Source of the DNA: Candidatus Ozemibacter sibiricus
GTDB lineage: Bacteria > Muiribacteriota > Ozemobacteria > Ozemobacterales > Ozemobacteraceae
Reading direction: 5' to 3'
Assembly: GCA_003327425.1 (NCBI GenBank)
Contig: QOQW01000001.1
Span: 124,001-188,000, forward strand
DNA: 64,000 nucleotides
Within the stretch, counting starts at the first letter, position 1. Every line of letters starts with the position of its first letter. A program made the position numbers and the translations under genes. The notes beneath the pieces were generated by a model. It was not told the DNA's origin. It made no database searches and saw only the letters and a list, made by a program, of their open reading frames with translations. Shown one piece after another: positions 43,238 through 56,056 of this stretch.

Positions 43238-44386
43238 TCAGTTGAACGGGGTGCCATGCGGGAATGGCACCTGCAGATGCCTGGCGACCGAAGCGGCGAC
43301 ATCCCAGAATCCTTGTCGGATGCCGAGATCCCGGCCCGGGCGTCCCTTCTGGTAGGTCAACAGGAAGGGGTATTCGCGGGTGTGGTCGCTGCCTTTGAAG
43401 GTGGGATCGCACCCGTGGTCGGCGGTCAGGATCAGCAGATCATCAGCGGTCAGCCGCGGCAGGAAGTCGGCCAGCCAGCGGTCGAACTCCTCGAGGGCGT
43501 TCTTGTACCCGGCCACGTCGCGCCGGTGGCCGTAGACCATGTCGTAGTCGACGAGATTCGTGAAGATGAACCCATGCTTCACGGTGTCGAGGGCGGCCAT
43601 CGTCTTGCGCATGCCGTCGGCGTTGCCTTCGGTGGTCACGTGCGGCTCGACGCCGCGTCCGGCGAAGATGTCGTAGATCTTGCCGATGCCGTAGGTCGGG
43701 ATCTGGCGGGCGTGCAGCACGTCGAGCACGGTCTCGCCGCTGGGCGGCAGGCTGAAGTCATGGCGGTGGCTGGTGCGCTTGTAGGCGCCCGAGGTGCCGA
43801 TGAAGGGGCGGGCGATGACCCGCCCGACCGCCATGTCCGGCGGTTGCAGCATCTCTCGGGCGATCCGACACATCTTGTACAATTCTTCCAAGGGTATCAC
43901 TTCTTCGTGCGCGGCGACCTGGAAGACCGAATCGGCCGAGGTGTAGACGATCGGCTTGCCGGTGCGCACATGCTCGTCGCCGAGCTGCATGATGATCTCG
44001 GTGCCCGAGGCCGGGTAGTTGCCCAGCGTGCCGCGGCCGATGGCGGCTTCGTACCTGGCCAGCCAGTCCTTGGGAAACCCTTGCGGATAGACGGGGAAGG
44101 GGTATTCGAGCTTGACGCCCATCATTTCCCAGTGCCCGGTGGTGGTGTCTTTTCCCGGGGAGAGTTCGAGCATTTTGCCGTAGCCCCCTTCCGGGGCGGG
44201 GGCGGGGGGAACGCCTCTGATCGGCGCGATGTTGCCCAGGCCGAGTCGCCCCATGGTGGGCAGGTGCAGGCCGCCGGCCGCTTCGGCCAGATTGGGCAGG
44301 GTGCCCGATCCGGCATCGCCGTACTGGGCGGCATCCGGCATGGCGCCGATGCCGACGCTGTCGAGAACGATACAGATGGCTCGCAT
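43238..44386 (-). CDS. deoB: Phosphopentomutase
   Basis: 382 aa, alkaline-phosphatase superfamily. Moves phosphate between C1 and C5 of ribose or deoxyribose. Metal-binding motifs ICIVLDSVGIGAMPDA at the start and LTADHGCDP followed by GSDHTREYPFL near the end; substrate motif KDTTTGHWEMMG. Ribosome site GGAGGTGA is ideal. It is the last gene of the BMC operon, 187 bp after rpiB-like, and would feed deoxyribose-5-phosphate from nucleoside phosphorolysis into the pathway. DeoB has no visible encapsulation peptide, so it is probably cytosolic. Confidence 0.95.
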   Translation of the reverse strand: MRAICIVLDSVGIGAMPDAAQYGDAGSGTLPNLAEAAGGLHLPTMGRLGLGNIAPIRGVPPAPAPEGGYGKMLELSPGKDTTTGHWEMMGVKLEYPFPVYPQGFPKDWLARYEAAIGRGTLGNYPASGTEIIMQLGDEHVRTGKPIVYTSADSVFQVAAHEEVIPLEELYKMCRIAREMLQPPDMAVGRVIARPFIGTSGAYKRTSHRHDFSLPPSGETVLDVLHARQIPTYGIGKIYDIFAGRGVEPHVTTEGNADGMRKTMAALDTVKHGFIFTNLVDYDMVYGHRRDVAGYKNALEEFDRWLADFLPRLTADDLLILTADHGCDPTFKGSDHTREYPFLLTYQKGRPGRDLGIRQGFWDVAASVARHLQVPFPHGTPFN

Positions 44387-44572: not shown

Positions 44573-45043
44573 TCACGCCGCAGGCGGGTGGTGGGAGGCG
44601 GGAATCTGCTCGAGTCGCATGATCTTGGCGACCCGGGCGGCGTGGCGGCCGGGGGCCGGGGCGGTGGCCAGCCACAGATCGACGATCTGCCTGGCGAGGC
44701 CGGGGCCCACGACCATGCTGCCCATGGTGAGCACGTTGGCATGGTTGTGTTCGCGGCTGTTGCGGGCGGTGTAGAGATCGTTGCAGCAACCAGCCCGCAC
44801 GCCGGGCACCTTGTTGGCGGCCATGCACGAACCGATGCCGGCGCCATCGATGATGATGCCCAGCGTATGCTCGTTGCGGCCGACCTGGCTGGCCACGAGG
44901 AAGGCGATGTCAGGGTAGTCGACGGGATCGGTCGAATGGGTGCCGACATCCTCGACGACGAAATTCTTTTCGAGCAGGTGCTTCTTCAGCTCTTCCTTGA
45001 GCAGGAAGCCGCCGTGATCAGCGCCGATGATCAGACGTGGCAT
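44573..45043 (-). CDS. rpiB: RpiB/LacAB-family sugar-phosphate isomerase with Cys-to-Asp change
   Basis: 156 aa. RpiB fold: IIGADHGGFLLKEELKKHL (substrate phosphate and ring-opening His), DVGTHSTDPVDYPD, NKVPGVRAGCCND, SREHNHANVLTMG. In RpiB the catalytic Cys precedes GTGIG; here the same position is Asp (IIDGAGIGS), as in the LacB subunit of galactose-6-phosphate isomerase (TID-YGAGS). The expected general base is thus altered, and a Cys appears seven residues later. Start shares one base with the pduT stop (TGATG). It probably acts on a pentose phosphate in this BMC pathway; ribose-5-phosphate isomerase activity should not be assumed. Confidence 0.85.
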   Translation of the reverse strand: MPRLIIGADHGGFLLKEELKKHLLEKNFVVEDVGTHSTDPVDYPDIAFLVASQVGRNEHTLGIIIDGAGIGSCMAANKVPGVRAGCCNDLYTARNSREHNHANVLTMGSMVVGPGLARQIVDLWLATAPAPGRHAARVAKIMRLEQIPASHHPPAA

Positions 45044-45603
45044 CACAGATACTCCCGGAACAGTTCTTCGCGCGGCCGCGGGATCACCACCGAGGAGACG
45101 ACCTGTCCGCGCCCCTGCAGGATGGCGAGGCCGGCGGCCACGCCGGCTTCGACCGCGGCGACGTCGCCGGTGATGGTATAGAAGCCTTTGCCGCCGATGG
45201 CCATGGCCAGCCGGATTTCGCACAGGTCGACCTCGGCCGCCTTGACCGAGGCGTCGGCGGCGAGGATGGTGGCGACCACGTCGAAGGTTTCGACCACGCC
45301 CAGGGCGCCGGGGGCGGGCAGGGTGTTGGTGGCGGTCAGGGCGGGATAGATCTGCGGATGGAGGTTGGGAATGACCAGGTCATTGACCAGATAGCCCTGG
45401 CCGACGCGCACGCCGGCGCTCACGCTGGCTTCGACGGCGGCGACGTCGCCCCAGACGAGCACCATGTACTTGCCCGGGCAGATGGTGCGGGCCAGCACCA
45501 GTTCGACGGTGGCGGCCTTGAGCATGGTATCGGTGGTGAGGTAGCCGACCGCGATGCTGGACAGCTCGATCAGGCCGATGGCGTGGTGGCGGGGGATGGT
45601 CAT
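45043..45603 (-). CDS. pduT: PduT-type BMC-T shell protein with iron-sulfur site
   Basis: 186 aa made of two BMC domains (about 6-90 and 98-182). Both contain the BMC pattern (AIGLIELSSIAVG; GALGVVETFDVV). The first domain has TICPGKYMVLVWGDVAAVE, close to PduT, where the Cys of ICPGK from three subunits holds a [4Fe-4S] cluster in the pore; Cys42 is the counterpart. It would form the electron conduit across the shell for PduS, encoded just upstream. GGGAG lies upstream; the stop overlaps the rpiB start. Confidence 0.92.
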   Translation of the reverse strand: MTIPRHHAIGLIELSSIAVGYLTTDTMLKAATVELVLARTICPGKYMVLVWGDVAAVEASVSAGVRVGQGYLVNDLVIPNLHPQIYPALTATNTLPAPGALGVVETFDVVATILAADASVKAAEVDLCEIRLAMAIGGKGFYTITGDVAAVEAGVAAGLAILQGRGQVVSSVVIPRPREELFREYL

Positions 45604-45610
45604 CGCATGC

Positions 45611-46924
45611 TCACTCCCTGGCGATGGTGATGGCGTCGGCCGTCACCTCGGCGACCCGGCCGCTGATCGAGGCGTGCAGGACGGCTCCCAGCTTCTGAGG
45701 GGGGATGGCCCCGATCTTCTGCCCGGCGGCGACGCGGTCGCCCGGCTTGACCAGCGGCTGGACGGGCACCCCGATGTGCATCTTCAGCGGCAGCCGCACC
45801 CGCTCGACGCGCAGGTCGACGGGGGTGAAGGGGGCCTTGCGGTCGTAGTCGAGCAGGCCGATCTTCTTGAGGAGGCGGTCGATGCTGACCCGGCGGGCCG
45901 ACCGCATCGGATGGACGCTCGGGGCGCCCTTCCAGTCGGACAGCTTGACGCCGCGCGCGAGGTGGGTTTTCTTGGCGGCGACGGCCATTTCGCGGGGCGG
46001 CAGGTCTTCCGGGCAGCTGAAGAGGGAACACAGCCCGCACTCGCAGCAGAAGACCGATTCGATCGACCACGCCTGGTCGTTGGCGGCGCTGAGCTGGGCG
46101 GTGCGCATGGCTTTGTGCGGCTTGATCGGGTAGCCCAGCAGGAAGCGCGGGCACAGTTCGGTGCAATCGGTGCACTGGTCGCAGGCCGAGCGGGCGATGC
46201 GGGTGTGGTCTTTGAGGGAACGGCTCATCTTGCGGATGAGCGGGTGGGCGAGCGGCAGGGCGATCAGGCCGCCGCAGGTCTTGGTCACCACTTCGCGCTC
46301 GAGATCGCCGAGCAGACGGCCCATCATGGGACCGCCGTCGATGATGGCGAGCCCGGTCAGATCGTGCAGACCGGCCAGGGCGAGGGCTTCCCGCACGCTC
46401 AGGCCGATCGGCACTTCGACGGTGACCGGGCGCGGCACCTGGCCGGTGATGGTCAGCACTTTCGTGGTCATGGGCTGGCCGCGCCCGACCAGCAGCAGGG
46501 TCTCGACATTGGCGACCACGCACCCGATATTCAGGGGAATGCCGCCATAGGGAATGAGTCGCTGCGAGGCTTCGTAGACCAGCTCGTACTCATCGCCGGC
46601 CGGGTAGAAATCGCCCAGCGGCAGCAGATCGATGCGGGGGTCGTCGATCGCCGAACGCAGGTGCTCGAGCACCTTGGCGTATTTCTTCTTGACCCCGATG
46701 AACGCTCGCTTGGCGCGGGTCAGGTCGAGGGCCAGCTTCAGCCCCTGCAGGAACGGCGCGGTCTGGTGCAGGAGCAGCTCCTTGTCTTTGTGCAGGAGCG
46801 GCTCGCACTCGGCGCCGTTGACGATGAAATAGTCGATGTCGCGGGCCGCCAGCTTGACGTGGGTGGGGAACCCGGCGCCGCCGCATCCGACGATGCCCAG
46901 TTCTTCGAGGGCCAGTGCTGCCAT
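45611..46924 (-). CDS. pduS: PduS/RnfC-like flavo-iron-sulfur electron-transfer protein
   Basis: 437 aa. N-terminal RnfC-type Rossmann region that binds NADH and flavin (GIVGCGGAGFPTHVKL, VNGAECEPLL), a SLBB domain, two [4Fe-4S] motifs CDQCTDCTELCP (about 250) and CCECGLCSLFSCP (about 294), and a C-terminal barrel-sandwich hybrid domain (about 375-437). In Pdu compartments PduS binds PduT and moves electrons across the shell. No B12-dependent enzyme or alcohol dehydrogenase is present here, which points to NADH reoxidation rather than cobalamin reduction. No clear ribosome site; it lies 27 bp after the aldehyde dehydrogenase gene. Confidence 0.92.
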   Translation of the reverse strand: MAALALEELGIVGCGGAGFPTHVKLAARDIDYFIVNGAECEPLLHKDKELLLHQTAPFLQGLKLALDLTRAKRAFIGVKKKYAKVLEHLRSAIDDPRIDLLPLGDFYPAGDEYELVYEASQRLIPYGGIPLNIGCVVANVETLLLVGRGQPMTTKVLTITGQVPRPVTVEVPIGLSVREALALAGLHDLTGLAIIDGGPMMGRLLGDLEREVVTKTCGGLIALPLAHPLIRKMSRSLKDHTRIARSACDQCTDCTELCPRFLLGYPIKPHKAMRTAQLSAANDQAWSIESVFCCECGLCSLFSCPEDLPPREMAVAAKKTHLARGVKLSDWKGAPSVHPMRSARRVSIDRLLKKIGLLDYDRKAPFTPVDLRVERVRLPLKMHIGVPVQPLVKPGDRVAAGQKIGAIPPQKLGAVLHASISGRVAEVTADAITIARE

Positions 46925-46950: not shown

Positions 46951-48378
46951 CTAGACGATGCGGAAGGCGTCGACCAGGACGCAGCGTCGCTGACGGGTGA
47001 AGGTGCGAGCGCTGGTCAGGCCCTCGCCGGTGGGCGAGGCGATGGTGAAGGTGGTGAACCCTTCCCCGCCCAGGCCGAGGCCGGCGTAGCTGGGCCCGTT
47101 CTTGACGAAGATCGAGCAGTTGCAGCGGGTGGCCATCTTGTGCAGGTTGTCGAGGTTCTTGCTGTGCATGATGGCGGTGTGGTGATAGCCGTGCTCGACC
47201 TTGACGGCGAGATCGATGGCGGCATGCACATCGCGCACCCGCACCAGCGGCACCACGGGCATCAGCATCTCTTCGAGCACGAAGGGGTGGTCAGGGCCGA
47301 CCTCGCACAGCACCATGCGGATGTCATCGGGCACCTTGACCCCGATGGCATCGAGGATGACGTTGGCATTGCGGCCGACGAACCCGCGATGAGGGCCATG
47401 GGTCTTGGGATCGAGCACGACCTTCTCGAGCTGCAGGATCTCGCGCGCCGAGGCCTCGTAGGCCCCGCTCTGACAGAGGTACTTCTTCAGCTCGTCGGCC
47501 ACCTTCTCGACCACGATGATCTCTTTTTCCGCGATGCACAGGACGTTGTTGTCGAGCGTGGCTCCCGAGACGATGTCGCGGGCGGCCTTCCGCAGATCGG
47601 CCGTCTCGTCGACGACGGCGGGCGGATTGCCCGGACCGGCGGCGATGTATTTCTTGCCTGATTTGGCGGCGGCCGCCACCACGGCGGGGCCCCCGGTGAC
47701 GACGAGCAGCCGGATGTCGGGATGCGTCATCAGGACCTGCGCGGTCTGCACGCTGGGCTTGAGGACGGTGGTCATCAGGTTCTCGGGGCCGCCGGCCTCG
47801 ACCACCGCATCATTGAGGATGCTGACGGCCAGCTGGCTGACGCGGGCCGCGGCGGGGTGCGGGCCGAACACCACGGCGTTGCCGGCGGCGATCATGCCGA
47901 TCGCGTTGCAGATGACCGTTTCCGAGGGGTTGGTCGACGGGGTGATGGCGCCGATCACGCCGTAGGGGGCCTGTTCGACCACCGTCAGGCCGTGATCGCC
48001 CGAATAGGCCACCGGTTGCAGGTCTTCGAGGCCGGGGGTCTTGGTGATGGCCAGCATGTTCTTCTGGATCTTGTCGGCCACCCGGCCGTAGCCGGTCTCC
48101 TCGTGGGCGAGCCGGGCCAGGTCCTCGACCCGTTCGGCCGCCCGCTTGCGCATGTTGGCGATCAGAGCGGCCCGGGTCTTGAGGGGCAGCTCGACCAGCT
48201 TCTTCTGGGCCTGACCGGCGGCGCGAATGGCGTCTTCGACCGCCTCGAAGAGGCCGCGCTGACCGGTCGTCCCTCCCGGGCCGGCCGGCGAGGCCACGGC
48301 CAACGAGGCCCCAGACGCCTGGAGGGCCTTCAGGACCTCCTGCACGATGACGTTCATTTCGTCACGAGTAACGGCCAT
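46951..48378 (-). CDS. pduP: PduP-type CoA-acylating aldehyde dehydrogenase
   Basis: 475 aa. Turns an aldehyde plus CoA and NAD+ into acyl-CoA. The N-terminal residues 3-20 form an amphipathic helix (VTRDEMNVIVQEVLKALQAS) followed by a Gly/Ala/Pro linker, the layout of a BMC encapsulation peptide. Family motifs: GVIGAITPSTNPSETVICNA, GPGNPPAVVDETAD, and catalytic Cys in DNNVLCIAEKE. ATG 48378 has GGGAGG 6 nt upstream; the GTG at 48384 overlaps that site. Likely substrate here is acetaldehyde from a deoxyribose-phosphate aldolase, by inference. Confidence 0.94.
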   Translation of the reverse strand: MAVTRDEMNVIVQEVLKALQASGASLAVASPAGPGGTTGQRGLFEAVEDAIRAAGQAQKKLVELPLKTRAALIANMRKRAAERVEDLARLAHEETGYGRVADKIQKNMLAITKTPGLEDLQPVAYSGDHGLTVVEQAPYGVIGAITPSTNPSETVICNAIGMIAAGNAVVFGPHPAAARVSQLAVSILNDAVVEAGGPENLMTTVLKPSVQTAQVLMTHPDIRLLVVTGGPAVVAAAAKSGKKYIAAGPGNPPAVVDETADLRKAARDIVSGATLDNNVLCIAEKEIIVVEKVADELKKYLCQSGAYEASAREILQLEKVVLDPKTHGPHRGFVGRNANVILDAIGVKVPDDIRMVLCEVGPDHPFVLEEMLMPVVPLVRVRDVHAAIDLAVKVEHGYHHTAIMHSKNLDNLHKMATRCNCSIFVKNGPSYAGLGLGGEGFTTFTIASPTGEGLTSARTFTRQRRCVLVDAFRIV

Positions 48379-48448
48379 GATCACCCTCCCTGTACAAGAG
48401 GAGCAGAAAGGCAGGCTGCGTCAGGACCAGGACGGGGCAGCGGCCGCT

Positions 48449-48733
48449 CTACGGCCTGCCCCGTTCCTGGTCCATGACCACCGCATCGACGATGCCGGCG
48501 ATCGCGGCATCGACGGGTTTGTTCAGCGTCCGGTCGGTGAGGCGGGCCGAACTGCCGGAAACCAGCAGCACGGTTTCGGCCGCCCCCGCGCCGACGGCAT
48601 CCGCCGCGATGACGTACTTGCCGGTGGGCTTGGCGTCGATGGTCAGCTCTTCGACGACCAGGAGCTTGATGCCCTCCAGGCGTTCATCCTTGCGGGTGCA
48701 GACGACGGTCCCGCAGACGCGTCCGAGGTTCAT
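48449..48733 (-). CDS. eutN: BMC-P vertex protein (EutN/CcmL family)
   Basis: 94 aa, single EutN/CcmL domain: LGRVCGTVVCTRKDERLEG, LLVVEELTIDAKPTGKYVIAADAVGAG, ETVLLVSGSSAR. These pentamers cap the twelve vertices of the shell. This is the only BMC-P gene in the window, while many loci have two or three. It lies 70 bp before pduP. Confidence 0.95.
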   Translation of the reverse strand: MNLGRVCGTVVCTRKDERLEGIKLLVVEELTIDAKPTGKYVIAADAVGAGAAETVLLVSGSSARLTDRTLNKPVDAAIAGIVDAVVMDQERGRP

Positions 48734-48751: not shown

Positions 48752-49045
48752 TTATTTCTTGCTGGTCGTGACTTCCCGGATGGGCATGACCTCGTCGAGG
48801 TTGGCGTGCGGCCTCGGGATGACATGGACGCAGACGAGTTCGCCGATCTTCTTGGCGGCGGCTGCGCCGGCGTCGGTGGCGGCCTTGACGGCGGCGACAT
48901 CGCCCCGCACGAAGGCGGTGACGAAGCCGGATCCGATTTTTTCCCAGCCGACCAGCCGGACGTTGGCGGCTTTCACCATGGCGTCGCTGGCTTCGATCAG
49001 GGCGGTCAAACCTTTGGTCTCGATCATTCCGAGGGCTTCCTGCAT
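48752..49045 (-). CDS. pduA: BMC-H shell hexamer protein (PduA/EutM-like)
   Basis: 97 aa, one BMC domain: [20 protein letters not shown], the pore loop KIGSGFVT, and [20 protein letters not shown] matches the hexamers that pass small metabolites through the facets. Short C-terminal extension ([10 protein letters not shown]). AAGGAGG precedes the ATG. Only one BMC-H gene is in this operon. Confidence 0.95.
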
Positions 49046-49101: not shown

Positions 49102-49746
49102 TCAGGCGATGAGTTCGACACGATCGCCGGTCTTGATGTTCCCGGCGTTCGCTTCATCCATGTCGATGTGGAAATCGAGGGCGAACTGGTCGCTGACACG
49201 GACCAGCACATTGCAGAAGATCAGGGCCTTCGGCCCGGAGGTCTTGACGCTGATGCGGTCCATGTCTTTGAGACCGAATTTCTCCGCATCCTTGGAATGC
49301 ATGTGGATGTGGCGGGCGGCGACGATGACGCCTTCCTTGAGGTTGATGGCGCCCTTGGGCCCGACCACGACCAGCCCGGGCGTCCCCTTGGTGTCGCCCG
49401 AATCGCGCACCACGGCCGGAACGCCCAGGGTGTACGAATCGGTGACCGAGATCTCGATCTGCGTGGCTTTGCGCACCGGGCCGAGAATGCGGCATTTCTC
49501 GATGATGCCCTTCTTGCCGATCAGCATGACGCACTCTTCGGCGGCGAACTGGCCCGGCTGGGAAAGATCTTTCATCACCTTCAGCTGGTACCCCGGGCCG
49601 AACAGCAGGTCGAGATCTTCCTGCGACAGGTGGATGTGCCGACCGCTGACCCCGACTGGAATGGTGCCGGGCTTGATGCGGTCCTGCAGGTCGACCTGCT
49701 TGAGAACCTCAGCCACGATTTGCTTCACTTTCTTCTCGTCGAGCAT
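49102..49746 (-). CDS. pduL: Phosphotransacylase PduL
   Basis: 214 aa. Converts acyl-CoA and phosphate to acyl-phosphate and CoA, recycling CoA inside the shell. Two metal-binding beta-barrel halves carry GVSGRHIHLSQEDLDLLFG and VAARHIHMHSKDAEKFGL. The first 20 residues (DEKKVKQIVAEVLKQVDL) form an amphipathic helix typical of an encapsulation peptide and resemble the PduP N-terminus. AGGAAGG precedes the ATG. Confidence 0.95.
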   Translation of the reverse strand: MLDEKKVKQIVAEVLKQVDLQDRIKPGTIPVGVSGRHIHLSQEDLDLLFGPGYQLKVMKDLSQPGQFAAEECVMLIGKKGIIEKCRILGPVRKATQIEISVTDSYTLGVPAVVRDSGDTKGTPGLVVVGPKGAINLKEGVIVAARHIHMHSKDAEKFGLKDMDRISVKTSGPKALIFCNVLVRVSDQFALDFHIDMDEANAGNIKTGDRVELIA

Positions 49747-49755
49747 GCTTCCTTC

Positions 49756-50826
49756 CTATCCTTTGCGTTGGACCGGGCGGTCCAGTTCCTGGTCGTCGAT
49801 CAGGCGAGCTGTCGGCGGCCGGGCCGTGTCGGAGGGCCCTCGAACATCGGGGGTGGCCAGGGGTACGAAGATCGGCGGCGACCGATGGCTCCCGGGATGC
49901 GGGGCCATTATATCACACTCGACGAGCCGTTCAAGGGGGAGGGTGGTGAAAATCGCCAGCCCGCACCGAGCGGCCAGAGCGGCCAGTGATCGCAGATGGG
50001 CGGGGTCGGAATAGGGGGGCGCGGCGGGCAGGATGGCCCCGCGACAGCCCAGGTCGGCCAGCATGGCGATGGAGGTCTCGCCGGTGAAGGCGCCCTGCGA
50101 TGCCCAGTGAACCGTGGAGGCGACCAGGCGATGCCGCAAGGCCGGAAACAGCTCCTGGAAGATGGGGATGAGGGGCGGGGCGAGCACGAACAGCAGCGAG
50201 GGGTGCGCGTGGGCGACCTGGAACAGCCGCTCGCCGGCCGCCTGTAGGTCCTGGCGGGTGGCGGCGCGCACTCGGTACAGGAGACATTGGGGGGCGGGCT
50301 CCGCCTCGGTCAGGCCGAGGGCGGTGGCGACCTCGCGCGCCCAGTCGGTCAAGGGGCGGCCGGCCGGTAGAACGCGGATGCCCTGCCAATGGAGTTCGCG
50401 CACCTCCTCAGCGGTCAGGGCCTGTCGAGGATCGGTCGACGGCGGGGCCTGCCGCGATGCCTGGTCAGAGGCGAGCAGGCTGGCGAGGTCCTGCGGAAGA
50501 ATCGGCTCGAGGCCGAGGTCGACCCAGTCTTTCGGGGGACGGCCGGGAGCGGGGACCAAGGCGCGCACCGGCGGACCGTCAGGATGCTTGAGGAGCTCCC
50601 ATAGGGCTTCCAGCGCGGGCGAATCGCGCAGGCCGAGGGCCGCCTTGCGCAGCAGGTCGGGCGGCACCTCGTGCAGAACGACCGCCGCGAAGCGGGAAAA
50701 CCCTAGCCATCGTACCGATTCGAGACTGGTCAGCAGGAAGGTCTCGGGCTCGAGGCCGAAAGGCGGCTGGCACAGCGTCTCGACGGTGACCTGGGAGGAA
50801 ACGATCAGCAGCGGTCGGGCAGGCAT
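49756..50826 (-). CDS. BMC-operon protein with degenerate triosephosphate-isomerase-like region
   Basis: 356 aa, first gene of the BMC operon. Three parts: residues 1-115, a Rossmann-like region of unknown type (LLIVSSQVTVETL; FAAVVLHEVPPDLL); residues 137-172, LTAEEVRELHWQGIRVLPA then LTDWAREVATALGL, a segment seen in several BMC cargo proteins; residues about 180-300, similar to the first half of triosephosphate isomerase: LFVLAPPLIPIF, VHWASQGAFTGETSIAMLADLG. GAFTGETS is identical to E. coli TpiA. Yet the catalytic Lys (NWK) and His (GHSERR) positions hold other residues and the Glu half is absent. Start chosen from the promoter; ATG 50835 lies in the -10 box. Likely non-enzymatic or changed in function. 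Confidence 0.7.
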   Translation of the reverse strand: MPARPLLIVSSQVTVETLCQPPFGLEPETFLLTSLESVRWLGFSRFAAVVLHEVPPDLLRKAALGLRDSPALEALWELLKHPDGPPVRALVPAPGRPPKDWVDLGLEPILPQDLASLLASDQASRQAPPSTDPRQALTAEEVRELHWQGIRVLPAGRPLTDWAREVATALGLTEAEPAPQCLLYRVRAATRQDLQAAGERLFQVAHAHPSLLFVLAPPLIPIFQELFPALRHRLVASTVHWASQGAFTGETSIAMLADLGCRGAILPAAPPYSDPAHLRSLAALAARCGLAIFTTLPLERLVECDIMAPHPGSHRSPPIFVPLATPDVRGPSDTARPPTARLIDDQELDRPVQRKG

Positions 50827-50833
50827 CGCCGCC

Positions 50834-50862
50834 ATGATAGTGGAGCGGCGTCGTGAAATCAA
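50834..50862 (-). promoter_or_regulatory. Promoter of the BMC operon, probably leaderless
   Basis: On the minus strand TTGATT (50862-50857), 17-bp spacer, TATCAT (50839-50834). ATG 50826 begins 7 nt after the -10 box. It lies 40 nt downstream of the 6S RNA terminator. No operator could be identified. Confidence 0.65.
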
Positions 50863-50895: not shown

Positions 50896-50930
50896 GAAAA
50901 ACGGAAGGCCGCGCGTCGCGCGGCCTTCCT
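50896..50930 (-). terminator. Intrinsic terminator of the 6S RNA
   Basis: A perfect 11-bp stem (AGGAAGGCCGCG / CGCGGCCTTCC, 50929-50903) is followed on the minus strand by GTTTTTCC. No T tract follows on the plus strand, so it works for a minus-strand transcript. Confidence 0.8.
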
Positions 50931-51518: not shown

Positions 51519-53621
51519 TCAGGGGCGGGAGCGGTGGGGAGGGGAGCCGGCCCGGGCCGCGGGACCGCGGCGCATGGCCTGGCGTCGCGACTGGCCCTTT
51601 TCCCGCCCGGCCTTCAACGCCCCGCGCAAGTTGGACAGCACGCCCTGCTCGAGGTGCTCCTCCTGCAGGGCGATGATCTCATCGCGAATGAGGGCGGCCC
51701 GTTCGAACTGCAGAGCGGCCGCCGCCTGCTCCATTTCCTTCTTGAGGTCTTCGATCAGGCTGGTCAACCGGTCGGGAGCGAGCCGCGCCGGCCCTTCCCC
51801 AGAGCTTGCGCCGGGCACGGTGAAGGCGGACGGCAGTTTCTTGACGATCGAGGTCGGTTCGATGCCGTGCGTGCGGTTGAACTCCTCTTGAATGCGGCGG
51901 CGGCGTTCGGTCTCTTCGATGCACTTCTGCATCGAGGGCGTGATCCGGTCGGCGTAGAGGATCACCTCGCCGTTGACGTTGCGGGCCGCCCGGCCACAGG
52001 TCTGGATCAAGGCCCAGGCTGAACGCAGGAAGCCCTCCTTGTCAGCGTCGAGGATGGCCACCAGGCTGACCTCGGGCAGGTCGAGCCCCTCTCGCAACAG
52101 GTTGATGCCTACCAGCACCGAGAAGACGCCCTGTCGCAGGTCGCGCAGGATCTCGATCCGTTCGAGGGTGTCGATTTCATCATGCAGGTACCGGGCAGGG
52201 ACATCCATCTGGGTCAGCCAGGTCGCCAGCTCCATGGCCATGCGTTTGGTCAGGGTGGTCACCAGCACGCGCTCGCCCCGATCGATCCGCTCGCGGATGC
52301 GCGCCAGCAGGTGGTCGATCTGTCCGGCGGTGGGCACCACCGAGATGCGGGGATCGAGCAGGCCGGTGGGCCGGATCAACTGTTCGACGACGCGCGGACC
52401 GGATTGCTCGAGTTCCCAGGGACCGGGGGTGGCCGAGACGAACAGCAGGGGACGCTGGCGCGCCAGGAATTCCTCGAAGGTCAAGGGGCGGTTGTCGAGC
52501 GCCGACGGCAGGCGGAAGCCATAATCGACGAGCGTCTGCTTGCGGCTGCGGTCGCCATGGCACATGCCCTTGAACTGCGGCACGGTCATGTGCGATTCAT
52601 CGAGAATGATGAGGCAGTCTTTCGGCAGGTAGTCGATCAGCGTGTCGGGGGCTTCCCCGGGCTGCCGTCCGGCCAGGTGGCGGGAATAGTTCTCGATGCC
52701 TTTGCAGGTGCCGGTCTCCCGCATCATCTCGAGGTCATAGCGGGTGCGCTCCTGCAGGCGCTGGGCCTCGACCAGCTTCTTCTGGCTCTCGAACCAGGCG
52801 ACCCGCTCGCGCAATTCGGCCTCGATGCTCTGCAAGGCCGCTTCCCGCTTGTGTTTCGGCGTGACGTAATGCTGCGCCGGGAAGATGGACACCTCGTCGA
52901 GGCTGGCCAGCATTTCCCCGGTCAGCGGGTCGAACCGCTCGATCCGTTCGATCTCGTCGCCGAAGAACTTGACTCGCAGCGCCTGTTCGCTCGAGGCGGG
53001 GAAGATGTCGATCGTCTCGCCGCGGGCCCGGAAGCGCGAGCGGTGGAAATCCATGTCGTTGCGCGAATACTGGATCTCGATCAGTTCGCGCACCAGCTGC
53101 TGCCGCGGATGGACGCTGCCCCGCTTCAGGTGGAGCTTGAGCCCGGCATAGTCTTCCGGCGAGCCCAGGCCGTAGATGCAGCTGACCGAGGCGACGATCA
53201 GCACGTCGCGCCGGGTGAACAGGGCCGCGGTGGCGGCATGCCGGAACCGATCGATCTCCTCGTTGATGTCGGAATCCTTCTCGATATACTGGTCGGTGGT
53301 CGGAATGTAGGCTTCGGGCTGATAGTAGTCGTAGTAGCTGACGAAGTATTCCACCGCATTGTGGGGGAAGAACTCCTTGAACTCGCTGTACAACTGGGCG
53401 GCCAGGGTCTTGTTGTGGGTGACGACCAGGACTGGCCGGCCGAGCCGGGCGATCAGGTTGGCCATGGTGAAGGTCTTGCCGGAACCCGTCACGCCCAGCA
53501 GGGTGGCAAACGGGGCGCCGGCCTGGATCCATTCGACCAGGCGCTCGACGGCCTGGGGTTGATCGCCGCGCATCTGGAACGGACTGACCAGCTGGAAGAT
53601 CGCGGGTTGCTTCGCATTCAT
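51519..53621 (-). CDS. uvrB: UvrABC excinuclease subunit B
   Basis: 700 aa. Nucleotide-excision-repair helicase-like subunit. Walker [14 protein letters not shown], beta-hairpin [25 protein letters not shown]-like [11 protein letters not shown], motif [11 protein letters not shown], and a C-terminal UVR motif ([22 protein letters not shown]). A basic tail of about 25 residues extends past the UVR motif. The -10-like TATACT at 53634-53629 lies 7 nt before the ATG, suggesting a leaderless mRNA; no -35 is evident. It is divergent from the DppA-type gene. A LexA box was not found. Confidence 0.96.
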
Positions 53622-53636
53622 GGCTGTCAGTATAAT
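53607..53636 (+). promoter_or_regulatory. Promoter of the DppA-type gene
   Basis: TTGCTT (53607-53612), 18-bp spacer, perfect TATAAT (53631-53636). It overlaps the uvrB start region, so the two divergent promoters share DNA. Leader about 23 nt with GGGAG. Confidence 0.6.
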
Positions 53637-53665
53637 ACACCCGACGATCCAAAGTGGGAGCAGAC

Positions 53666-54484
53666 ATGAAACTCTATATCGTAGCCGACATGGAAGGAAT
53701 CGCTGGCGTGGTCTCGCCGGCCGAGGTCGAGGGCGGCAACAGCTGGGAAACCGAACAAGCCCGCAAGCAGTTCACCAACGAAGTGCTGGCGGTGTGCCAG
53801 GGCGCCATCGAGGCCGGGGCGGAAGAGATCGTGATCAACGATTTCCATGGCCATGGCCGCAATTTGATCCTCGATCGCTTCCCTTCCCAGGTCATGGTGA
53901 TCCGGGGCGGCTTCCGCCGGACGTCCGGCTTCGATCTGCTCGATTCCTCCTTCAGCGGGCTGGTCCTGTTGGGAGCCCACACCCGCACCGCCTCGGTGCA
54001 GGGCGTGCTGTCCCATACCTACAGCCCGCGGTTGCAGTTCGAGATTTTCGGGCAGCCGGTCGGAGAATTCGACCTGCTGGCGCTGCTGGCCGGCGAGAAG
54101 AAAGTGCCGACGATCATGATCTCGGGCGACGACAAGACGATCGAGCAGGCCTCCACCAATCTGCCATCGACCCTGGGCGTGGTGACCAAGTGGGCGGTGG
54201 GCACGCAGGCCGCCTTGTGTCTGCACCCGGCCCAGGTCTGCCAGTTGCTCAAGGAAGAGATCCGCCGGGCGGTCAAGCAGATCGACAAGATCGAACCGCC
54301 GGCCATCACCCCGCCCATCCAACTGCTCATCCGACCTCTCGACGTGGCCCTGGTCGATCGTCTGTCCTGGATTCCCCGTGTCAAGAGCCTGCCGGGCGGG
54401 GCCTTCGAGTTCATCGGCGAGAGCATGGAAGAAGTGGCCAACGTCGTCTACGGGGCGACCCTGCTCAGCACCCCAGGGCACTGA
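53666..54484 (+). CDS. M55-family D-aminopeptidase (DppA-like)
   Basis: 272 aa. Zinc enzyme family that frees D-amino acids from short D-peptides of cell-wall origin. Motifs: [12 protein letters not shown] with the Asp-x-Glu zinc ligands, [57 protein letters not shown] 53666 follows GGGAG by 5 nt. No peptide transporter genes adjoin it. Good family match; D-peptide recycling is inferred. Confidence 0.88.
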
Positions 54485-54610
54485 ATCGGCGCCGCGGGCC
54501 GGCGCGTCCTTCGGTCGTCGCCGCCGCCGCCGACGACGACCGTCGCGGGACGATCGGCGGCCTGGCGAAGCCTCCTCGTCCTGCGCTGCGTTGACCAGCG
54601 CTGATGATCG

Positions 54611-56056
54611 TCAGGCTTTGGTGATACCCAATTCCTTCATCTTGCGCTGGAGGGTGCGTCGGGAAATCTCGAGCATGCGCGCCGTGACCGAGACGTTGTG
54701 CTGATTGTTCTCGAGGGCGCGCAGGATGATCTCGCGTTCGGCCGCCATGAGCTGCTGTTCGAGACTGCCCGAGCCGGGGATGGCGGCCGTCACGGGCCGG
54801 CGCTCGAGAAAATGCGGGGGCAGGTGGCTTGGCAGGATCACGTGGTCGGCCAGCACCACCGCCCGCTTCAACACGTTCTCCAGTTCGCGGATATTGCCGG
54901 GCCAGGAATATCCGAACAGCAGGCGTCGGGTCTGCGGGTCGAGGGTAGGCACGGGCTTGCGGTTCTCGCGGGCGAACTTTTCGAGGAAGTGATCGATCAA
55001 CAGGGGAAGATCGCCTTGCCGTTCCCGCAAGGGGGGCAGCGTGATGGCCATCTCGTTGATGCGGTAGTACAGGTCGTGCCGGAAGGTGCCCTCGCGGACC
55101 AGGGCCGGCAGGTCACGGTTGGTCGCGGCGATGACTCGGATGTCGATGTCGATGGCCTTGACGCCGCCCACCCGCCGGATCTGCCGCTCCTGCAGGACCC
55201 GCAGCAGTTTGACCTGAAAATTCAAGGAGGTTTCGGAGATTTCGTCGAGGAAGATGGTTCCGTGGTTGGCGATCTCGAAGAAGCCGATCTTCTGACCGAC
55301 GGCGCCGGTGAACGCCCCTTTCTCATGGCCGAACAGCTCGCTTTCGATGATGGAATCGGGGAGAGCGCCGCAGTTGACCGGAATGAAATTCTGCTGGGCG
55401 CGGGGCGAGTTGGCGTGGATGGCATGCGCCACCAGCTCCTTGCCGGTGCCGCTTTCTCCCTGGATGAGGACGGAGAGGTTGCTGGCGCTGATCTTTTCGA
55501 TGCAGCTGAACATCGATTGCATCTTCTCGGACTGACCGATGATCCCCTGGAAGCGCGCGCCGGCCGCAGGGCCGCTGCCGGGCCCCCTTCTGGGCTGCGG
55601 CCCGCGGGTCACTTCGAAGACGTTGATCGGGGAGAATTCGAAGATCGCTTTGGTGGAGATCTTCTGGATCCAGGGGGGGAGGATGGTGCCGAGATCGCGG
55701 ATCTCGGCGTCGCGCAGCCCCAGGCGCTTGCCTTCCTTCCAGATGAAGGCCGACAGCTCGTCGGGCGACATCTCGAGCAGCTTGTCGAGGTCCATTTCCA
55801 TCATGCGCTCGAGGAGGTTGAGGTAGCCGAGGTACTTGCCCTGAGCCGCTTCGGCTTCGGGTTCGCCGAAGCCGATGTCCCGCAGCACCTGTTCCCGCAT
55901 GGCGGGGGGCAGCGCCAGACCGAAATTGACCTCCTGCTTCTTGTGGACGCCGCTCTTCCATTGTTCGAAGAGACGGTCGAGATCGGTCACTTCACGGGGG
56001 GAGATTTCGGAAAAGAACTGGGTGGCGATGTCCTTCAGGCGCTTGAGGTCTTCCAT
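54611..56056 (-). CDS. Sigma-54-dependent transcriptional activator with a novel N-terminal domain
   Basis: 481 aa. AAA+ domain at about 165-400: Walker A GESGTGKE, the RpoN-contact loop ELFGHEKGAFTGAVG, Walker B GTIFLDEIS, and the Arg-finger region LPPLRERQGDLP. The C-terminal Fis-type HTH is NQHNVSVTARMLEISRRTLQRKM. The N-terminal 155 residues are not a response-regulator receiver (no DD...K pattern), nor a GAF or FHA domain that I can see; they are helical and acidic. It could control the sigma-54 pilin promoters at 1.5-1.9 kb, but there is no direct evidence. Confidence 0.9.
   Translation of the reverse strand: MEDLKRLKDIATQFFSEISPREVTDLDRLFEQWKSGVHKKQEVNFGLALPPAMREQVLRDIGFGEPEAEAAQGKYLGYLNLLERMMEMDLDKLLEMSPDELSAFIWKEGKRLGLRDAEIRDLGTILPPWIQKISTKAIFEFSPINVFEVTRGPQPRRGPGSGPAAGARFQGIIGQSEKMQSMFSCIEKISASNLSVLIQGESGTGKELVAHAIHANSPRAQQNFIPVNCGALPDSIIESELFGHEKGAFTGAVGQKIGFFEIANHGTIFLDEISETSLNFQVKLLRVLQERQIRRVGGVKAIDIDIRVIAATNRDLPALVREGTFRHDLYYRINEMAITLPPLRERQGDLPLLIDHFLEKFARENRKPVPTLDPQTRRLLFGYSWPGNIRELENVLKRAVVLADHVILPSHLPPHFLERRPVTAAIPGSGSLEQQLMAAEREIILRALENNQHNVSVTARMLEISRRTLQRKMKELGITKA

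Follow-up and report, generated by a model that had tools for sequence, protein, structure and literature searches.

In the Eut microcompartment, EutQ, which is also an acetate kinase, serves as the shell-cargo linker. Helices H1/H2 (residues 9-41) of Salmonella EutQ associate with the shell and H3/H4 with the cargo, and loss of either helix pair separates shell from cargo (PMC12487888). PduM, CcmN, CsoS2, and PduB(1-37) are structural linkers of other microcompartments that tie core to shell, and deletion of pduM, like that of eutQ, makes the two come apart. SPU-type (sugar phosphate utilisation) bacterial microcompartments (BMCs) rely on a DeoC aldolase that gives acetaldehyde and glyceraldehyde-3-phosphate (PMC4207490, PMC8217296), and a triosephosphate isomerase (TIM) was reported in one Atribacteria SPU locus in 2014 (PMC4207490). 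Loop 3 of TIM is swapped between subunits and makes up much of the dimer interface (PMC4664265). Here we describe TIMH, a dead-TIM fusion protein and a candidate for the same duty of tying core to shell.

TIMH is the 356 aa product of an ORF, whose presence we confirmed, at positions 49756-50826 (ATG at 50826) of the window, a stretch of 64,000 nucleotides from Candidatus Ozemibacter sibiricus. The ORF, its parts, its promoter, and the operon genes given below are all on the minus strand. The preliminary description had placed TIMH at the head of the BMC operon, and this held in every genome of the family in which the main BMC locus was assembled, with TIMH directly upstream of pduL in 17/17 loci. 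The operon continued with the PduL phosphotransacylase (49102-49746, PF06130 E = 4.8e-79), a BMC-H shell protein (48752-49045, PF00936), a BMC-P (EutN/CcmL) vertex protein (48449-48733, PF03319), an aldehyde dehydrogenase (AldDH) with an N-terminal encapsulation-peptide-like helix (46951-48384, PF00171), an RnfC/PduS-like oxidoreductase (45611-46924; PF01512, PF13375, and PF13534), a BMC-T tandem shell protein with two PF00936 stretches (45043-45603), an RpiB sugar-phosphate isomerase (44573-45046, PF02502 E = 1.2e-49), and a gene whose product we take, from knowledge of its family, to be a DeoB-like phosphopentomutase (43238-44386, PF01676). Where the contig was long enough, pduL was likewise followed by BMC-H, BMC-P, AldDH, RnfC, and BMC-T in the orthologous loci, with RpiB and phosphopentomutase in most.

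Two enzymes that mark the SPU type were present, an RpiB-type isomerase (PF02502) beside the BMC shell genes and a DeoC-type aldolase (PF01791) in a satellite locus rather than in the main operon. This satellite (G000:C7:45.6-47.7 kb) contained the aldolase and two BMC-P genes. The phosphopentomutase, RpiB, AldDH, PduL, RnfC, and shell genes together with the DeoC satellite fit the SPU type; we left the subtype unassigned because satellites of two BMC-P genes and an aldolase have been catalogued for HO-type BMCs (PMC8217296). In the satellite DeoC, encoded in the same genome outside the window (L067:10604-12088, minus strand), a Cys-rich stretch (CTTCIGAGGCTSC) preceded the aldolase, and the protein also had a helix like an encapsulation peptide and a flavoprotein-like domain that keeps S-x-N-T. 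A Cys cluster, possibly a metal site, occurred in the same place in DeoC from other SPU loci.

The start of pduL was 9 bases past the TIMH stop, with the pduL ribosome-binding site over the last TIMH codons, and the conserved C-terminal RKG of TIMH is at least partly this ribosome-binding site. A sigma-70-like promoter, TTGATT-17-TATCAT, was predicted at 50834-50862, its -10 box ending 7 bases before the ATG. Twelve of the 17 orthologous loci had a TANNNT box 5-8 bases before the TIMH start, against 2.0 expected from shuffles. Because this conserved -10 box is 6-7 bases from the start codon, we predict a leaderless operon transcript starting at TIMH. A strong terminator-like hairpin was found at 50903-50929, between uvrB and the BMC operon. 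The region 51519-56056, upstream of the operon, contains uvrB together with a divergent gene at 53654-54484 and the gene for a sigma-54-type activator, a set that stays ahead of the BMC genes in many family genomes (L040, L042-L046). With the activator gene nearby, we looked for a sigma-54 promoter upstream of the BMC operon and found no consistent site.

The C-terminal part of TIMH is what remains of a TIM. By Pfam and hhalign, residues 191-291 are homologous to the first half of the enzyme. PF00121 (TIM) matched residues 211-266 with E = 2.6e-7 (30.8 bits vs a cut-off of 20.1) and matched all 17 orthologues at E ≤ 1 or better. The profile search against TIM that had been suggested as a check, with the orthologue profile and complete TIMs as the two sides, aligned TIM residues 16-122 only (hhalign, probability 98%, E = 2.2e-13). 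NCBIfam and PDB sequence searches agreed weakly on TIM, and the Pfam search of TIMH found no other family, neither a cupin acetate-kinase domain nor a direct match to PF02441. The TIM-like half occupies aa 178-293 (49948-50295) and covers the beta1 to beta5 region. Instead of a full (beta-alpha)8 barrel of ~245 aa, the alignment ends at TIM residue 122 and is followed by ~63 unrelated residues, and this C-terminal tail (aa 294-356, 49759-49947), with a near-invariant CDI, stands in for the catalytic second half.

The catalytic residues were gone from all orthologues. The Lys of NWK and the His of GHSERR were replaced in 17/17 orthologues in the alignment, and the TIM half that contributes the GGS loop and, in AYEPVWAIG, the catalytic Glu had no counterpart in any of the 17. 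The preliminary description was thus right to call this a catalytically dead half of TIM, and the exact GAFTGETS with a preceding APP strand that it had cited are both present. GAFTGETS (aa 245-252, 50071-50094) is TIM loop 3, the dimer-interface loop, and was the best conserved element. Seven of the 12 invariant columns in the TIM part fell in aa 243-255, which span loop 3 and the first part of helix 3 (hypergeometric p = 3e-6), while the invariants elsewhere in this half were mostly hydrophobic, Gly, or Pro and formed no new acid/base cluster. GAxTGExS and CDI were both strongly conserved among the orthologues. That TIMH is a pseudoenzyme is well supported. A separate, complete TIM is encoded elsewhere in the same genome. 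Single-sequence AlphaFold gave a pLDDT of 44 for the whole protein and 59 for aa 174-325, values too low for fold comparison. The TIMH of genome G008 (L041:8274-9146) had no C-terminal tail, and the AldDH of the same locus matched in two pieces, which makes sequencing errors likely in that assembly.

The N-terminal domain (aa 1-126, 50449-50826), which the preliminary description had left unassigned, appears related to BMC flavoproteins (PF02441-like). Such proteins are found either on their own or as a fusion with DeoC in the satellite locus. TIMH aa 44-174 aligned with the stand-alone form (~230 aa, from the same family of genomes) with probability 97% and E = 1.3e-11 (hhalign), including its C-terminal ITRDDV..TDLAREEA segment, and the stand-alone flavoproteins themselves matched PF02441 Flavoprotein near its cut-off. 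The P-x-S-x-N-T or PASANT motif is flavin-binding. The stand-alone proteins have it as P-L-S-L-N-[TS]-x-x-K, whereas TIMH has lost the N-T pair and retained an LGxxD that was invariant in the 17 orthologues. Flavin binding by TIMH is doubtful because the N-T pair is lost. The stand-alone flavoproteins ending in ITRDDV..TDLAREEA (L060-L066) were encoded away from shell genes in the TIMH-bearing family, and those of L060 and L062 adjoined a 214-aa gene of one family.

Between the two pseudo-enzyme domains is a segment like EutQ H1/H2 (aa 136-173, LTAEEVRELH..GIRVLPAGRPLTDWAREVATALGL, 50308-50421). A profile of this 'LTAEEVRELHWQG' segment found E. coli EutQ (sequence from NC_000913) residues 3-46, which include the shell-binding H1/H2, with E = 3.7e-7 when scaled to 20,000 sequences. 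A resemblance to the N-termini of BMC cargo proteins had been remarked on previously; with this test it becomes a homology to the N-terminus of EutQ. EutT and flavoproteins matched the segment profile weakly. When six-frame translations of 41 loci and the window were searched, TIMH alone gave strong matches and weak ones came from stand-alone flavoproteins and from TIMs of family f5; in 17/17 loci the TIMH segment was the sole EutQ-like segment of the BMC locus. Unlike EutQ, TIMH has the segment internally and is without the cupin acetate-kinase domain. The cargo-binding helices H3/H4 were not recognised in TIMH with the segment profile, which covers EutQ 3-46 only, and no encapsulation peptide was recognised. 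PduM, CcmN, CsoS2, and PduB(1-37), which share the duty we propose for TIMH, had no direct sequence match to it. SPU-type loci also contained proteins of 80-93 aa (L078:16681-16926, plus strand; L079:3796-4038, minus strand; L082:19566-19847, plus strand) that combine an amphipathic helix resembling an encapsulation peptide with an ITPLARD-type segment akin to the ends of EutQ, PduM, and TIGR02536. The 93-aa BMC protein of L082, with the same kind of segment, matched the PduM C-terminus weakly. It is possible that these are minimal shell-cargo linkers.

TIMH was found in 17/24 genomes of the family, and the 16 orthologues shared 30-76% identity with the window protein. Of the remaining genomes, the four of genus g11 had neither a EutN-type protein nor TIMH; they keep pduL, and the adjacent phosphopentomutase gene is read in two pieces (L086:4891-6781). 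Three others, 70-84% complete, contained two BMC-P genes only, and since these genomes are incomplete and pduL is absent along with TIMH, their assemblies probably lack the main BMC locus. In 358 genomes from outside the family there was no full-length relative, ordinary TIMs only, so that across these and the 24 family genomes the architecture was limited to one bacterial family. The viral contigs searched yielded no relatives, and a scan of genome contigs gave one TIM-type match only. In a tree with TIMs, TIMH formed a single clade (100/100), but its stem branch was so long that the tree neither fixed its point of attachment nor put it closer to the TIMs of BMC loci than to housekeeping ones. 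For the pairs tested, dN/dS was 0.11-0.36 over the whole gene and 0.09-0.42 per segment, low values that indicate purifying selection. TIMH evolves faster than its neighbour genes.

Loci of other lineages suggest a source for the gene. SPU-type loci of families f80 and f102 (L078-L082) had a complete TIM immediately upstream of pduL, the position of TIMH, and an N-terminal segment similar to that of TIMH occurred on three of these TIMs (in f80), whose start, e.g. YEDILSAARTGGKLFTDGKYMLTPLAKEALKRHNVEI, aligns with the TIMH segment. The f80 and f102 TIMs share with TIMH a homologous first half including loop 3, as does the Atribacteria protein (PMC4207490), whereas in TIMH the catalytic Lys, His, and Glu are gone together with the entire second half, and there is one more domain at the N-terminus. 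Two f5 genomes, from the phylum of the window, contained a second, complete TIM with catalytic residues kept that starts FITADEIRKA..VVTDEARDLARTLGV, with a weak NCBIfam match of this start to EutQ (E = 0.0023). The genes for these second TIMs (L088:9380-10327, L089:9125-10072) adjoin tRNA synthetase genes, not shell genes, and are likely satellite cargo genes. Synteny and architecture lead us to suggest that TIMH descends from a BMC-targeted active TIM, with the order of segments kept, catalysis lost, and the N-terminal domain gained. According to the preliminary description, homologues that keep Lys, His, and Glu would speak against a dead TIM. No orthologue keeps them; the same-position TIMs of other phyla do, and these explain the origin of TIMH and leave the claim of a dead TIM intact.

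We propose, with a probability of about 0.55, that TIMH is a TIM-derived, non-catalytic adaptor that probably links shell and cargo. The TIM ancestor, as cargo of a sugar-phosphate (deoxyribose-5-phosphate) microcompartment, would have lost catalysis and gained a flavoprotein-like N-terminal domain, whose cofactor motif was lost too. By homology with EutQ, the central helical segment would dock onto the shell's inner face. The flanking pseudo-enzyme domains would bind other proteins, with the TIM half using the loop 3/helix 3 interface that it has kept. The N-terminal domain would do so by oligomerising in the manner of flavoproteins, possibly with its relative on the satellite DeoC aldolase, and the outcome would be cargo tied to the shell. 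Among the three roles offered in the preliminary description (scaffold, triose phosphate sensor, or enzyme with a new site), the scaffold comes closest to this putative linker. More tentatively, and at somewhat under even odds, an enzyme of the encapsulated pathway became the shell-cargo linker of the same organelle, as a family-unique arrangement of two dead enzymes around a EutQ-type segment that replaced the active TIM and holds cargo via the TIM dimer loop and the flavoprotein-type interface.

The strong conservation of loop 3 and helix 3, the best kept part of the TIM half, could also mean that TIMH is a docking subunit. Its loop 3 would enter the pocket of the housekeeping TIM, and the heterodimer would bring active TIM to the microcompartment, where DeoC gives glyceraldehyde-3-phosphate, or would regulate TIM. 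The swapping of this loop between TIM subunits (PMC4664265) favours such docking, as does an operon without an active TIM in a genome with a complete one elsewhere, while other SPU loci have their own. However, the residues of TIMH's own pocket are gone, so only half of the reciprocal contact could form, and the conservation of loop 3 may instead serve folding or the pairing of TIMH with itself. We regard this docking as conceivable though rather unlikely, and it is compatible with a linker. The EutQ-like segment, for its part, may mark encapsulation only and not linking, because it is present in BMC proteins that are not necessarily linkers (EutT weakly, flavoproteins, and active TIMs). Similar segments on active TIMs, flavoproteins, and other presumed BMC cargo would agree with TIMH being a plain passenger that uses the segment just for entry to the lumen, the rest having another small role such as holding the aldolase. 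We think this improbable. Catalytic or cofactor residues are missing from the two flanking domains, and still no genome with the BMC locus has lost the gene, which points to a structural function; no other protein of the locus has a EutQ-like segment.

A more active role was considered as well, in which TIMH senses triose phosphate or catalyses a reaction at a new active site on the half-barrel. TIM ancestry, a pathway expected to yield glyceraldehyde-3-phosphate, and the conserved GAxTGExS and CDI all lean that way, but the TIM Lys and the phosphate-gripping loops 6-8, part of the missing half, are absent, the TIM half shows no conserved new catalytic cluster, and the flavin motif is degraded as well. 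We rejected the sensor as a main reading on the absence of the phosphate loops and find either role highly unlikely. The position of TIMH ahead of pduL raises the further idea of a decaying gene kept only for the pduL ribosome-binding site and translational coupling, which the 9-base spacing, the overlap of that site with the TIMH end, and the fast evolution relative to the neighbours would suit. Against this, dN/dS was <0.5 in every segment of every computable pair and all three segments had invariant motifs. A decaying pseudogene was rejected on dN/dS and co-occurrence with the BMC locus, and we give it almost no chance.

How cargo is joined to shell in catabolic microcompartments besides Pdu and Eut is mostly unknown, and TIMH is a candidate linker for one of them. 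The deoxyribose/sugar-phosphate microcompartment is among the most widespread kinds, and TIMH would give it a named candidate. The comparison with EutQ, flavoproteins, TIM, and the 80-93 aa proteins suggests that one EutQ-H1/H2-like module is common to very different BMC proteins. For this family, the likely path is one in which a catalytically active cargo enzyme that carried a shell-binding segment became purely structural once its active site was lost.
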